Source: Cyanobacteria bacterium FACHB-471 (lineage in GTDB: Bacteria > Cyanobacteriota > Cyanobacteriia > Elainellales > Elainellaceae). From it: DNA of 64,000 nucleotides. The notes beneath the pieces are model-generated. The model had not been told where the DNA came from. It worked only from the letters and a program-made list of their open reading frames with translations, and did no database searches. The stretch's first letter is position 1, and every line of letters begins with the position of its first letter. Shown in pieces: positions 17,886-55,583 of this stretch. Both the position numbers and the translations under genes were made by a program. The stretch covers positions 1-64,000 of the forward strand of contig JACJOC010000065.1 of assembly GCA_014695345.1 (NCBI GenBank), given 5' to 3'.

Positions 17886-17924
17886 GTGGTTTGGCGAACC
17901 CAAGCCTTGAGTTCGCCAAACCAC
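17886..17924. repeat. 14-bp perfect inverted repeat, probable terminator or repeat relic
   Basis: GTGGTTTGGCGAAC pairs perfectly with 17911-17924 around an 11-nt loop; the left flank begins GTAGGTTGGGT like the dispersed family. It sits between convergent genes and may end both transcripts. Confidence 0.6.
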
Positions 17925-33599: not shown

Positions 33600-33640
33600 G
33601 CAAAGAAGTATCGCCCGCAATGCGGGCGATACTTCTTTGC
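33600..33640. terminator. 19-bp perfect hairpin, probable bidirectional terminator
   Basis: GCAAAGAAGTATCGCCCGC, loop AAT, exact inverse. It lies between convergent genes (ends 33532 and 33696). A second stem, GCGCTGTTTCAAC (33639-33651) with its inverse at 33665-33677, overlaps it by 2 bp. Confidence 0.75.
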
Positions 33641-39518: not shown

Positions 39519-40526
39519 ATGCAAAACGAAACATTAGGGGAAAGTGTTATAAAAAAGCGTTACATGAAAACAGCGTTACGTGAAAGCAGTATAGAAGTTG
39601 AAGAGAGTGAGGTTACGATGTCGGAGGCAGAAAAGCCCCTGACAGTGCCTAAAGAATTTCTAGGTGCGCCAGGTGACTTTAACCCCACGCTGCTGATGTT
39701 TCTAGCAGCAGTTGTGATGGTTGTGATCTCAACGTTGGGATATTGGCGCTGGCATTGGGTGGACTGGTGCTGTTTTGTGATTAATGTGATTGCCTTACAC
39801 ATGGTAGGGACGGTGATTCATGATGCCTCGCATCATGTGGCACACCGCGATCGCATCGTCAACGCTGTGCTGGGACACGGTAGCGCTTTAATGTTGGGGT
39901 TTTCCTTCCCGGTGTTTACGCGAGTTCACATGCAGCATCACGCGAACGTAAACGATCCGGACAATGATCCCGATCATTTCGTTTCAACTGGCGGTCCGCT
40001 ATGGCTGATTGCAGCTCGGTTTTTCTACCACGAAATTTTCTTCTTTAAACGCAAGCTCTGGCGCAAATATGAGCTGCTGGAGTGGTTTTTGGCGCGTTTG
40101 GTTGTTATTTCAATTGTTTATGTCTCTGTTCAACACCATTTCCTGGGCTACGTTCTCAATTTTTGGTTCTCCCCAGCAGCGGTGGTAGGGCTGGCGTTAG
40201 GGCTATTTTTTGACTACTTGCCCCATCGCCCGTTTCAAGAACGCGATCGCTGGAAGAATGCCCGAGTCTATCCCAGTTCCATTCTCAATCTGCTGATCAT
40301 GGGGCAAAACTATCATCTGATTCACCATCTTTGGCCCTCAATTCCCTGGTACAACTATCAGCCTGCCTACCGCGCAACTCAGCCTTTGCTCGATGAAAAG
40401 GGCTGTCACCAGTCGTTAGGGCTGCTCCAGGGCAAAGACTTTCTTAGCTTCCTTTACGACATTTTCTTGGGAATTCGCTTTCACGGTCATAAACCGAAGC
40501 CTCAAGTGGAACATGAGGTTCCTTGA
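39519..40526 (+). CDS. crtR: Beta-carotene hydroxylase (fatty-acid-desaturase fold)
   Basis: A 335-residue di-iron membrane enzyme that adds 3-hydroxyls to beta-carotene rings, giving zeaxanthin. Histidine boxes: HDASHH at 101-106, HMQHH at 137-141, a further His in FDYLPHRPF and HLIHHLWPSIPW. The residues FFFKRKLWRKYELLEWFLAR are typical of cyanobacterial CrtR. The start is uncertain: GTG/ATG-type starts upstream, or ATG 39618 (MSEAEKPLTVPKEFLGAPGD) after GAGTGAGG, which fits the family better. A MITE-like element begins 9 bp after the stop. Confidence 0.92.
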   Translation: MQNETLGESVIKKRYMKTALRESSIEVEESEVTMSEAEKPLTVPKEFLGAPGDFNPTLLMFLAAVVMVVISTLGYWRWHWVDWCCFVINVIALHMVGTVIHDASHHVAHRDRIVNAVLGHGSALMLGFSFPVFTRVHMQHHANVNDPDNDPDHFVSTGGPLWLIAARFFYHEIFFFKRKLWRKYELLEWFLARLVVISIVYVSVQHHFLGYVLNFWFSPAAVVGLALGLFFDYLPHRPFQERDRWKNARVYPSSILNLLIMGQNYHLIHHLWPSIPWYNYQPAYRATQPLLDEKGCHQSLGLLQGKDFLSFLYDIFLGIRFHGHKPKPQVEHEVP

Positions 40527-40535
40527 AGCTATTCC

Positions 40536-40680
40536 AATAAATCTATAACGGTGTAGCAATCTAATACCAATTCCACAAATTAGGGCTACAGATGGAAGGG
40601 CACCTCGCTCCGCGAGGTGCCCTTCCATCTGAGAGATAACGTTATAGCTAGTCGTGTTGCGACACCGTCATAGATTTATT
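40536..40680. mobile_element. MITE-like element, 145 bp, 24-bp terminal inverted repeats
   Basis: Ends 40536-40559 and 40657-40680 are inverted copies matching at 22 of 24 positions, starting AATAAATCTAT. Inside is a 41-nt perfect hairpin (40590-40630). No transposase. No clear target-site duplication. The right repeat overlaps the 3-prime end of the PrsW gene and supplies its last codons and stop. Confidence 0.8.
40590..40630. repeat. 19-bp perfect hairpin with TCC loop
   Basis: AGATGGAAGGGCACCTCGC, loop TCC, exact inverse, in the centre of the MITE-like element between convergent crtR and prsW genes. Could also end both transcripts. Confidence 0.85.
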
Positions 40681-41933
40681 TTTACTCCTCGATAGCCCAT
40701 CTCTGCTTTTTGCATTTCTTCCACCATTTGTTTGCTGCGGCGAATATAGGTGACAAACAGCAGAATCGAGAAGCCAATGACGAGCAGCCCCAAAACGTTG
40801 CCCGCAAACGTGTTGTAAAAACCATGCAAGGCAGCAGCGATCGCCACGCCAATGAAAATAATGGCGCTGCGTCGTGAGGGGTTGATTGCTGCCAGTCCCA
40901 TAAAATAGCCGACAATCCCGGCGAGAATGGCATGAAAGAGCGGCAGGGAAACAAAGCGAATCGTATTTGCGATGACGTAGGAGCCAAAGTCTAGATCTCC
41001 TCTGGTCAAGCTAAAGCGGTAGAGCAATGAGTAGGTTGCTCCTTCAGCCATCGCAAACCCTAATCCTGATGCTGCCCCATAGAAAGCAGAGGTAAGCGGG
41101 TCTTGCAGCTTTCCTGGACGCAGCAAAAACAGGTATACGGGTAAGGCTTTGCACAGTTCTTCTAAAACCCCTACACCCAACACGAAACCAATCATCCGGG
41201 GAATCATCCCTGCCCCAATCACGGCGTAGAAGGCGTTAAACGGCGGCACCTGCTGAAAAAACAGCAACATTGGAATGCCGACAAAGGCAGTAAACAAAAC
41301 ACACTTCAACGTATCGCGCCAGGAAAATTGGGGTGGCTTGATCAAGTTGTATAGCACCACGCCCCAAATTGAGGCGTAGTAGATTCCTAGCATCCAGGCT
41401 GTTTGCTGAAGGCTGGCTTTGTCAGGTGTCACCAGATCCACAACTAGAGGAAATAAGCCAAAAAACAACAAAATTTTGACTAAGTGGTTTTGGTACAGCC
41501 CTAGACTGATCACGTCTCGATAGGGAAAAACGGCCGCAAATTGAAACGTTCTTAGCGTTGCCAAAAAATCGTTGGTTTCGGGGCGAGGTTTTTCTAGCTC
41601 TGCTAGCTCTAGTTCTGACAAAAGTTCGGACGAATCATCAAACAGAGGTACAAATTCTGCGTACCAAGTAGGTACGTCTTCGCCGATCTGCTGCCCATAA
41701 ACTTTGACTAATTGAATCGACTTGGCTCCATAGTCGCTAATCTGACGGTTGAGGAAGGAGACAAAAGTCTGCTGCGCAAGCGGACGAGTTGATGAAAGCA
41801 AGACTTGCAGACAGCTATCCATCAACAAGACTTTTGCCATCACCCCTCTGGGCTGTAAGGCTTGATTGAGCAGCGTGGCGATCGCCCCAGGATCACCCTG
41901 CTGGGCAAGTTCGACAAGACTGAATTGGGTCAT
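40668..41933 (-). CDS. PrsW-type intramembrane glutamic protease with extra N-terminal domain
   Basis: A 421-residue protein. Residues 1-95 are a soluble domain (LVELAQQGDPGAIATLLNQAL) shared with the next gene upstream. About 150-410 is membrane: at least eight spans. The PrsW motif EExxK is at 258-262 (LEELCK), with histidines later (FHAILAG, LHGFYN) suited to the active site. PrsW cleaves membrane anti-sigma factors in Bacillus; the target here is unknown. The last four residues KINL and the stop codon come from the terminal repeat of the MITE-like element, so the natural C-terminus may have been replaced. Confidence 0.85.
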   Translation of the reverse strand: MTQFSLVELAQQGDPGAIATLLNQALQPRGVMAKVLLMDSCLQVLLSSTRPLAQQTFVSFLNRQISDYGAKSIQLVKVYGQQIGEDVPTWYAEFVPLFDDSSELLSELELAELEKPRPETNDFLATLRTFQFAAVFPYRDVISLGLYQNHLVKILLFFGLFPLVVDLVTPDKASLQQTAWMLGIYYASIWGVVLYNLIKPPQFSWRDTLKCVLFTAFVGIPMLLFFQQVPPFNAFYAVIGAGMIPRMIGFVLGVGVLEELCKALPVYLFLLRPGKLQDPLTSAFYGAASGLGFAMAEGATYSLLYRFSLTRGDLDFGSYVIANTIRFVSLPLFHAILAGIVGYFMGLAAINPSRRSAIIFIGVAIAAALHGFYNTFAGNVLGLLVIGFSILLFVTYIRRSKQMVEEMQKAEMGYRGVKINL

Positions 41934-42016: not shown

Positions 42017-43891
42017 CTAATTAGAGCCAGCTGAGTTGGGGCTAGCGGGCGGACTGCCTGCCGGGCGAGTGGGGCTAGCTTGTGGTTCAGTGGTTGGACT
42101 GCCTGCCGGGCGAGTAGGACTAGCTTGTGGGCTAGTGGTTGGACTGTCCGCTGGGCGAGTGGGGCTAGCTTGCGGGCGGGCTGGGCGAGTTCCTGAGCTT
42201 GAACGATCTAGCGTGACGGGGGCTTCGATCCGCTGAGGTTCTGAAGCTCCTTCTGGTGTCCAAAATACGGCTTCCACATTGACGGTTGTAACGTCTGGGT
42301 TAATAGTAAACGAACTTCTAAAGGGCACCGTTTCTCCTGGCTCTAGGGCAGCAACGCCCAGACTACTATAGCCACCTTGAAACAAGTTGGGATTTTCAGC
42401 GGAGCCACCTCGGTAGGAAACCGACACGTCACTAACGGTCTGGTCGCTATGATTGGTAACGCATCCGACTACAAAATTACCGCCATTTTCAGACGCTTCA
42501 GGATCAAACTGCACATTCGTCAACTGAACGGGGTCAGACTCAGGAGTAGACTCCACCTCACGGCAAGTTACCTGATTGGAGACGGTGATGCTTGATGTGG
42601 GTGCCGATGCGTTAGTGTTAGCAGGAAGATTGGCGGCTTGCTGTTGAGCAGCGGCTAGACTCTGCTGATAGGCAGGCAAGCGGTTTCGGGCTGTGGCATA
42701 GTCTGGGCTATCGGCGGGTACTGCTTGCAAGAGGGCGATCGCCTGCTCCCACTGGCTAACAACCAAACCCCAATCATCGGCAGATCGGGCTGTTTCTGCC
42801 AGCGTTTCTGCCTGCTCCGCGCGACTGGCTGCATCCTCTAAAGGATTTTCTGAGAGGGGTTGCTCAATTTTATCTTCGTCGGCATCCAGTTCGGCTGCGG
42901 GATCAGGCGCAATCTCAGATGCCGAAGGCTGCAAGGACCTTTCCTGGCGCGAATACCAAATTGAGAAGCCAACAATCGCAGCAATCCAGCTTGCTACGAC
43001 CAACAAAATTAGGTAAAACCAGGGCGATCGCCCCGTCCTCGTCGGACGCTCTGGTACAGGTGCGTCTACCGCGTGTTCCACCCCATCTGCATCCGTCCAG
43101 GTCAGTTGTTCTGCAGGAGCGGTAGGTTCAGCGTCAACAGGTGGAATATTAGGTTCTTCGTAGGCAACATATTCCAACGATTCGTCTGGGGTGAAGTTAA
43201 CCTCATCATGGGCTGGAGTGACTACAGATGCAGGTTGGTCATCCAGGCGATCGCCAGTCCCAGATCCTGAATAAATTACCGGATCGGGAGCTAAAGTTTC
43301 TTCCTCTACTACCGCAGGTTCATTAATAACCGCAGGCTCATTTACAAGGGGAGATTCCTCTAAGTCCGCAAGGTCTTCTACAACTACAGGCTCAACTGTT
43401 GCACGGGGTTCTACAGGGGCTGCTCCGTTGCCAATGCGGTCAGCCGCAACCGGAGGGGGGGATACAGGTTCCGCTGGTGGCACTCGGCGGGGTGGGGGTG
43501 GAGGTGGGGGTGCCGCAGGTCGCCTGGAGACAGGAGGCTGAATTGAAGTCGTAGGGACAGAAGCAGACTCCAGGTCTGGTGGAACGGGTGTAGTGGGTGG
43601 CTTCAGAAAAATTTCTTCAGTCCAGACGGGGGAAGGGTTCCCAACTTGCCGACTGGCAATTTCAATCGATTGAATAGATTGGAGTCCCAGACTGGTGATC
43701 CCGTTTCGGACAAACGCAATCATGGCTTGTCGATTCGGAATTTGAGCAGACTCCAGCAAAACCTTTAAGCGATCGCCCTGCAAACCCACCGAAGCAGTCA
43801 TCCCTTTCGGCTGAAGCGAGCGATTCATCAGGGTGGCGATCGCCTGGGGATCACCCTGCTTTGCCAGTTCTAGAAGATTCGACTGTGTCAT
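42017..43891 (-). CDS. Proline-rich single-span membrane protein with tandem tail repeats
   Basis: A 624-residue protein. Residues 1-95 (LLELAKQGDPQAIATLMNRSL) parallel the N-terminus of the PrsW gene; about 100-280 is Pro/Glu/Ala-rich, with a run of prolines; one membrane span at about 290-310 (WFYLILLVVASWIAAIVGF). Beyond it lie a helical, TPR-like part (350-420), a beta domain of about 440-560 with FxAM/CARDB-like features (VTNHSDQTVSDVSVSYRGG), and a C-terminal tail of SPTRPAxSPTT repeats. Function unknown. Same strand as, and 83 bp before, the PrsW gene, so likely one unit. Confidence 0.7.
   Translation of the reverse strand: MTQSNLLELAKQGDPQAIATLMNRSLQPKGMTASVGLQGDRLKVLLESAQIPNRQAMIAFVRNGITSLGLQSIQSIEIASRQVGNPSPVWTEEIFLKPPTTPVPPDLESASVPTTSIQPPVSRRPAAPPPPPPPRRVPPAEPVSPPPVAADRIGNGAAPVEPRATVEPVVVEDLADLEESPLVNEPAVINEPAVVEEETLAPDPVIYSGSGTGDRLDDQPASVVTPAHDEVNFTPDESLEYVAYEEPNIPPVDAEPTAPAEQLTWTDADGVEHAVDAPVPERPTRTGRSPWFYLILLVVASWIAAIVGFSIWYSRQERSLQPSASEIAPDPAAELDADEDKIEQPLSENPLEDAASRAEQAETLAETARSADDWGLVVSQWEQAIALLQAVPADSPDYATARNRLPAYQQSLAAAQQQAANLPANTNASAPTSSITVSNQVTCREVESTPESDPVQLTNVQFDPEASENGGNFVVGCVTNHSDQTVSDVSVSYRGGSAENPNLFQGGYSSLGVAALEPGETVPFRSSFTINPDVTTVNVEAVFWTPEGASEPQRIEAPVTLDRSSSGTRPARPQASPTRPADSPTTSPQASPTRPAGSPTTEPQASPTRPAGSPPASPNSAGSN
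42053..42187. repeat. 45-bp tandem repeat in coding sequence, three units
   Basis: Units at 42053-42097, 42098-42142 and 42143-42187 encode the 15-residue SPTRPAGSPTTxPQA repeat in the C-terminal tail of the proline-rich protein. Confidence 0.85.
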
Positions 43892-55549: not shown

Positions 55550-55583
55550 AAAAAGCGCACCTCTGAATAGAGGTGCGCTTTTT
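55550..55583. terminator. Bidirectional terminator between epimerase and transketolase genes
   Basis: AAAAAGCGCACCTCT, loop GAAT, exact inverse ending TTTTT. Works for both converging genes. Confidence 0.9.

Follow-up and report, generated by a model that had tools for sequence, protein, structure and literature searches.

Between the convergent genes crtR and prsW an inverted repeat lies across the stop codon of prsW, at positions 40536-40680 of the window (the whole 64,000-nt stretch of DNA analysed). The question raised by this locus is whether a mobile element brought that stop codon with it, or whether the stop is older than any element now found there. The features on which the answer depends are:

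39519..40526, plus strand: crtR, beta-carotene hydroxylase (fatty-acid desaturase superfamily), convergent with prsW (NF045688, 576.7 bits, cut-off 475; PF00487)
40668..41933, minus strand: prsW, a PrsW family intramembrane protease gene (PF13367, 94.4 bits, cut-off 23.5)
40668..40670, minus strand: the prsW stop, TGA, found at the same codon in two relatives that lack the palindrome
40536..40559, plus strand: 5′ arm of the outer palindrome, putative stem of the crtR terminator; complementary to 40657-40680 at 22/24 positions, with the relatives' shorter hairpin pairing at the same place
40657..40680, plus strand: 3′ arm of the outer palindrome, antisense to the final codons of prsW and its stop
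40675..40683, plus strand: T-run TTTATTTTT, ending the 3′ arm, for crtR transcripts; conserved in the two relatives

The interval consists of two distinct features, one nested inside the other. We are fairly confident that the outer one is a crtR terminator overlapping an older prsW stop, and that the inner one is a MITE that transposed into the terminator loop. The structures described by an earlier, sequence-only reading were all recovered: the arms, 24 nt each and spaced by 97 nt, are 92% complementary (22/24); a perfect 20-bp hairpin with a 3-nt loop lies between them (40589-40608/40612-40631); and the right arm, read on the minus strand, gives ...(K)-I-N-L-TGA, ending at the PrsW stop. 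The predicted fold of the full insert, in which the outer arms are paired around a self-closed inner hairpin, reached –71 kcal/mol (shuffles, –33 ± 4), which is beyond chance, while the outer arms alone, with the inner element removed, folded at about –26 kcal/mol (shuffles, –11 ± 3). An Rfam search returned no match above chance.

The same reading had taken the whole 145 bp to be a single MITE bounded by 24-nt terminal inverted repeats, the insertion of which at the 3′-end of prsW supplied the last residues and the stop codon and so rewrote the C-terminus. The near-perfect repeats and the element-like size agree with such an origin, as do the absence of the structure from relatives and the difference in the last two residues. 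The same-genus comparison involved three genomes including this one, two of them MAGs; the relatives were Leptolyngbyaceae cyanobacterium RM1_406_9 (G001) and SM1_4_3 (G002). The PrsW protein ends in GYRGVKINL* here, and in GYRGIKIER* and GYQGIKIER* in the two orthologues, which lack the structure. The corresponding DNA is GGA-GTA-AAA-ATA-AAT-CTA-TGA here and GGA-ATA-AAA-ATA-GAG-CGA-TGA in both G001 and G002. All three genomes thus agree in the stop, in the length past the conserved GY(R/Q)G and in the KI codons, the NL found here being ER in the relatives. Of the 13 nt between the supposed edge of the element and the end of the stop, 10 match without gaps (P ∼2 × 10–4 for random 13-mers), and when the first four bases are left aside 6 of 9 do so (P ∼0.01). 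Such a 13-nt match is not what an insertion starting at the arm should produce, and it counts against a supplied stop. Since the KI codons and the stop occupy the same codons, ungapped across the supposed insertion, in relatives without the arms, the prsW stop is, as judged from this alignment, ancestral and older than any insertion here. KIER-TGA and KINL-TGA being colinear at the stop, neither a supplied stop nor a C-terminus rewritten by insertion was borne out for PrsW, which differs in its last two residues only. PrsW homologues at 67% and below, being more distant, had tails that could not be aligned and different downstream sequence.

The search for further copies of the 24-nt ends pointed the same way. 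With the MITE removed, the outer arms had no second copy in the 7.15-Mb genome and none in 35 family genomes, and no direct repeat flanks them in the sequence, the only repeat being a palindromic TA within the arms. As, in addition, the interior is explained by an independent multi-copy element (see below), a single 145-bp MITE is highly improbable. The outer palindrome might instead be an older, unrelated single-copy insertion, or a decayed pair of IS ends, that resembles the relatives' prsW end by chance only. In favour of this, nothing in the relatives clearly corresponds to the innermost half of the arms (ACGGTGTNGCAA), but the 10/13 ungapped match, the in-frame stop at the same codon and the lack of a duplication make this very unlikely.

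Two further observations were made around prsW. In G002 the prsW-crtR gap is interrupted by contig ends on both sides, one lying in the gap (L046, G002:C256:1) and the other apparently within the end of crtR (L186, G002:C397); hairpin-like CAAGGGGCTTAAGCCCTT at the prsW-side contig end suggests a repeat there too. At 43610-43891 (minus strand) the gene beside prsW begins with a domain that shares 44% identity with the N-terminus of PrsW over 94 residues, and this domain has further copies elsewhere in the genome.

If the outer arms are not the ends of an element, what they represent is suggested by the relatives, in which the same place is taken by a shorter hairpin with the same T-run after it. 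On the plus strand, G001 has AATAGAG-TAT..CATCGCTCTATTTTTAT and G002 has AGTAGAG..CTCTATTTTTAT, i.e. a hairpin of the form AATAGAG...CTCTATT followed by TTTAT. In the three-sequence alignment, the arms form an 11-bp stem in which 93.8% of cells are paired (25-53% with the arms slid), and in two of the pairs both partners have changed (A-T/G-C and T-A/G-C). With three sequences the column-shuffle control for this covariation was weak (53/500); when the fold of the whole region was compared with shuffles, G002 gave a z of –3.0 and G001 one of –1.0 (not better). Given the shorter hairpin and T-run at the same place, and the two compensatory pairs, the outer palindrome is best read from these alignments as an intrinsic terminator of crtR that overlaps the prsW stop. 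Its stem, stable without the MITE (∼ –26 kcal/mol), is directly followed by the T-run on the plus strand, and the pairing is conserved in the relatives, three sequences being a small sample. A terminator scanner with loops restricted to 3-8 found nothing at the outer palindrome. The earlier suggestion that a hairpin here terminates both converging genes survives in altered form: the outer arms carry a T-run, mainly for crtR, while the inner hairpin has none. As a canonical terminator the inner hairpin was ruled out, there being no T-run and no consensus terminator found by the scanner. Bidirectional or overlapping intrinsic terminators at convergent bacterial genes likewise combine a stem and a T-run overlapping a coding end; the outer palindrome differs from them in its unusually long, AT-rich stem and in a loop that holds a mobile hairpin. 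Elsewhere in the window, another convergent pair (55550-55583) has a stem AAAAAGCGCACCTC...GAGGTGCGCTTTTT ending in a run of T, and long near-perfect palindromes without T-runs, possibly other hairpin repeats, lie in other convergent gaps at 17886-17924 and 33600-33640.

Both the terminator and the prsW stop would be older than any insertion, the stem being longer in this lineage, with base pairs changed on both sides. Through a template switch at replication, which would have created or perfected the outer palindrome, one arm of the older short hairpin might have been copied over the other, so that the stem lengthened and the ER/NL codons changed in one event; this would refine the terminator reading rather than compete with it. 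Template switching has been documented to produce clustered compensatory changes in hairpins, as seen in rRNA genes (PMC8794818), and here too the two both-sides changes are clustered in one stem that is far longer than in the relatives and near-perfect. The rRNA cases, however, were drawn from large trees (PMC8794818), whereas the present comparison has three sequences and lacks an outgroup by which the change could be polarised; ordinary compensation, step by step, would fit equally well, and the interior arm bases are untraceable. As a route to the long stem template switching is plausible but unproven on these comparisons, and as an account of the locus we judge it unlikely.

The inner feature is of a different nature, and comprises:

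40565..40644, plus strand: inner hairpin MITE, an 80-nt degenerate copy of a ∼91-nt family, without the consensus stretch TAGCCTCTTTTT
40562..40564, plus strand: left target copy, TAA (3-bp TWA duplications are family-wide)
40645..40647, plus strand: right target copy, TAG, with one mismatch to the left TAA
40589..40631, strand not assigned: perfect 20-bp MITE hairpin, with no T-run on either side

When positions 40500-40720 were compared with the whole genome, many matches were obtained, all to the inner part. This genome carries at least 41 copies of the family, a lower bound since not all candidates were scored; the family consensus is [TWA]TACCAATTCCAAAAATTAGGGCTACAGATGGAAGGGCACCCCGC..GCGGGGTGCCCTTCCATCTGTAGCCTCTTTTTAGAGAAACGTTA[TWA]. 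Identical 3-mers flank 15 of the 41 copies (TTA/TTA in eight, TAA/TAA in six, TGA/TGA in one), against 8.4 expected as the permutation mean (P = 0.003), and inverted flank matches were found in only two. The pairing of TTA with TTA and of TAA with TAA indicates a target duplication and not an inverted end. The window copy has degenerate ends (TACCAATTC versus TAACGTTTC, read inward); copies in G018 have clear terminal inverted repeats (TATCAATTC...GAATTGATA), and in G001 and G002 copies are fewer and more diverged, some of them at shared loci. In G015 and G018, which belong to two other genera (L117, L122, L118, L123 and others), the MITE ends are shared (TAYCAATTCC.AAAA.TT.GGGC) and the interiors are different. 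A MITE is thus present in the interval, as first proposed, but it is the hairpin element at 40565-40644 and not the structure bounded by the 24-nt arms, which is single-copy and without a target duplication. Among the PF01609 transposase loci of G000 and G018 (the only family tried as autonomous parent), none had the MITE ends as IS termini. The TWA duplication is reminiscent of IS5-family groups.

A hairpin MITE that expanded in this lineage, duplicating 3 bp at TWA, would accordingly have transposed into the loop of the crtR terminator, perhaps through an IS5-like enzyme. Its self-folding would leave the outer arms pairing beside the T-run. Termination of crtR was probably kept despite the MITE, since in the predicted fold the element closes on itself and the outer arms can pair next to the T-run; both actual termination and tolerance of the insertion are inferred from this model. 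A more elaborate account, in which template switching rewrote the last codons of prsW while the stop was kept, and the terminator loop offered a harmless, fold-preserving landing site for a palindromic MITE, is in our view decidedly doubtful.

A stop codon supplied by a MITE, although not the case at prsW, was found elsewhere in the family. Among the at least 41 copies, five contain the stop of a gene:

Threonine synthase: ..GN|TNSKN*
Sensor histidine kinase: ..GSY|PTSKN*
Polysaccharide deacetylase-like protein: ..SN|TNSQD*
HemW-like protein: ..DFT|TFL*
TPR protein: ..RQIS|YLQ*

In about five more genes (dnaX, those for an MFS transporter and a CHRD protein, and two others) the duplicated TAA is itself the stop; copies of one or the other kind include L146, L172, L166, L150, L157, L159 and L169, and at L166 one copy holds or adjoins the ends of both convergent genes. 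Two of the five have empty-site relatives with different ends. In the histidine kinase gene (L161, G000:C85:78806-78893) the MITE copy lies at the old stop, and the element supplies YPTSKN and a new stop; the relatives without it (L191, L192) end in PATS* (G002) and PAAS* (G001), and in both of these empty sites the TTA target lies across the old stop, AGTTAG. For HemW (L164; relatives L224 and L225), the relatives without the MITE end in FICL* (G001) and FASLKQCSQRSDT* (G002). For threonine synthase, the search for an empty site in the genus yielded only homologues of 37% identity, which could not serve for the comparison.

The inner element is a new MITE family with a known kind of effect. 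In Coxiella burnetii, the small hairpin MITEs QMITE1 and QMITE2 overlap the 3′-ends of functional genes, where they can contribute C-terminal residues or adjoin the stop (PMC5896051). The present family resembles them in being a small hairpin MITE at gene 3′-ends, and differs in sequence and host, while the copy at prsW supplies no stop. When RU-1, a small mobile sequence of enterobacteria, became fused to an ORF at its 3′-end, the original stop was lost and a new C-terminus and stop were gained (PMC2759123); RU-1 is, however, 127 bp long, of other sequence, and adds a long fused peptide, compared with 3-6 residues in the family described here. Nezha (Zhou et al. 2008, cited in PMC10969869) is, like the inner MITE, a non-autonomous cyanobacterial element. 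MITE transcripts have also been proposed to act as terminators (PMC10969869).

The analysis corrects a tempting misreading, in which an inverted repeat at a stop codon is taken for a stop brought by insertion, and tells the host terminator apart from the mobile element nested in it. With 41 or more copies of a single small hairpin, some of which verifiably replaced stops and short C-termini, this cyanobacterium offers a natural series in which the cost of such changes would be measurable.
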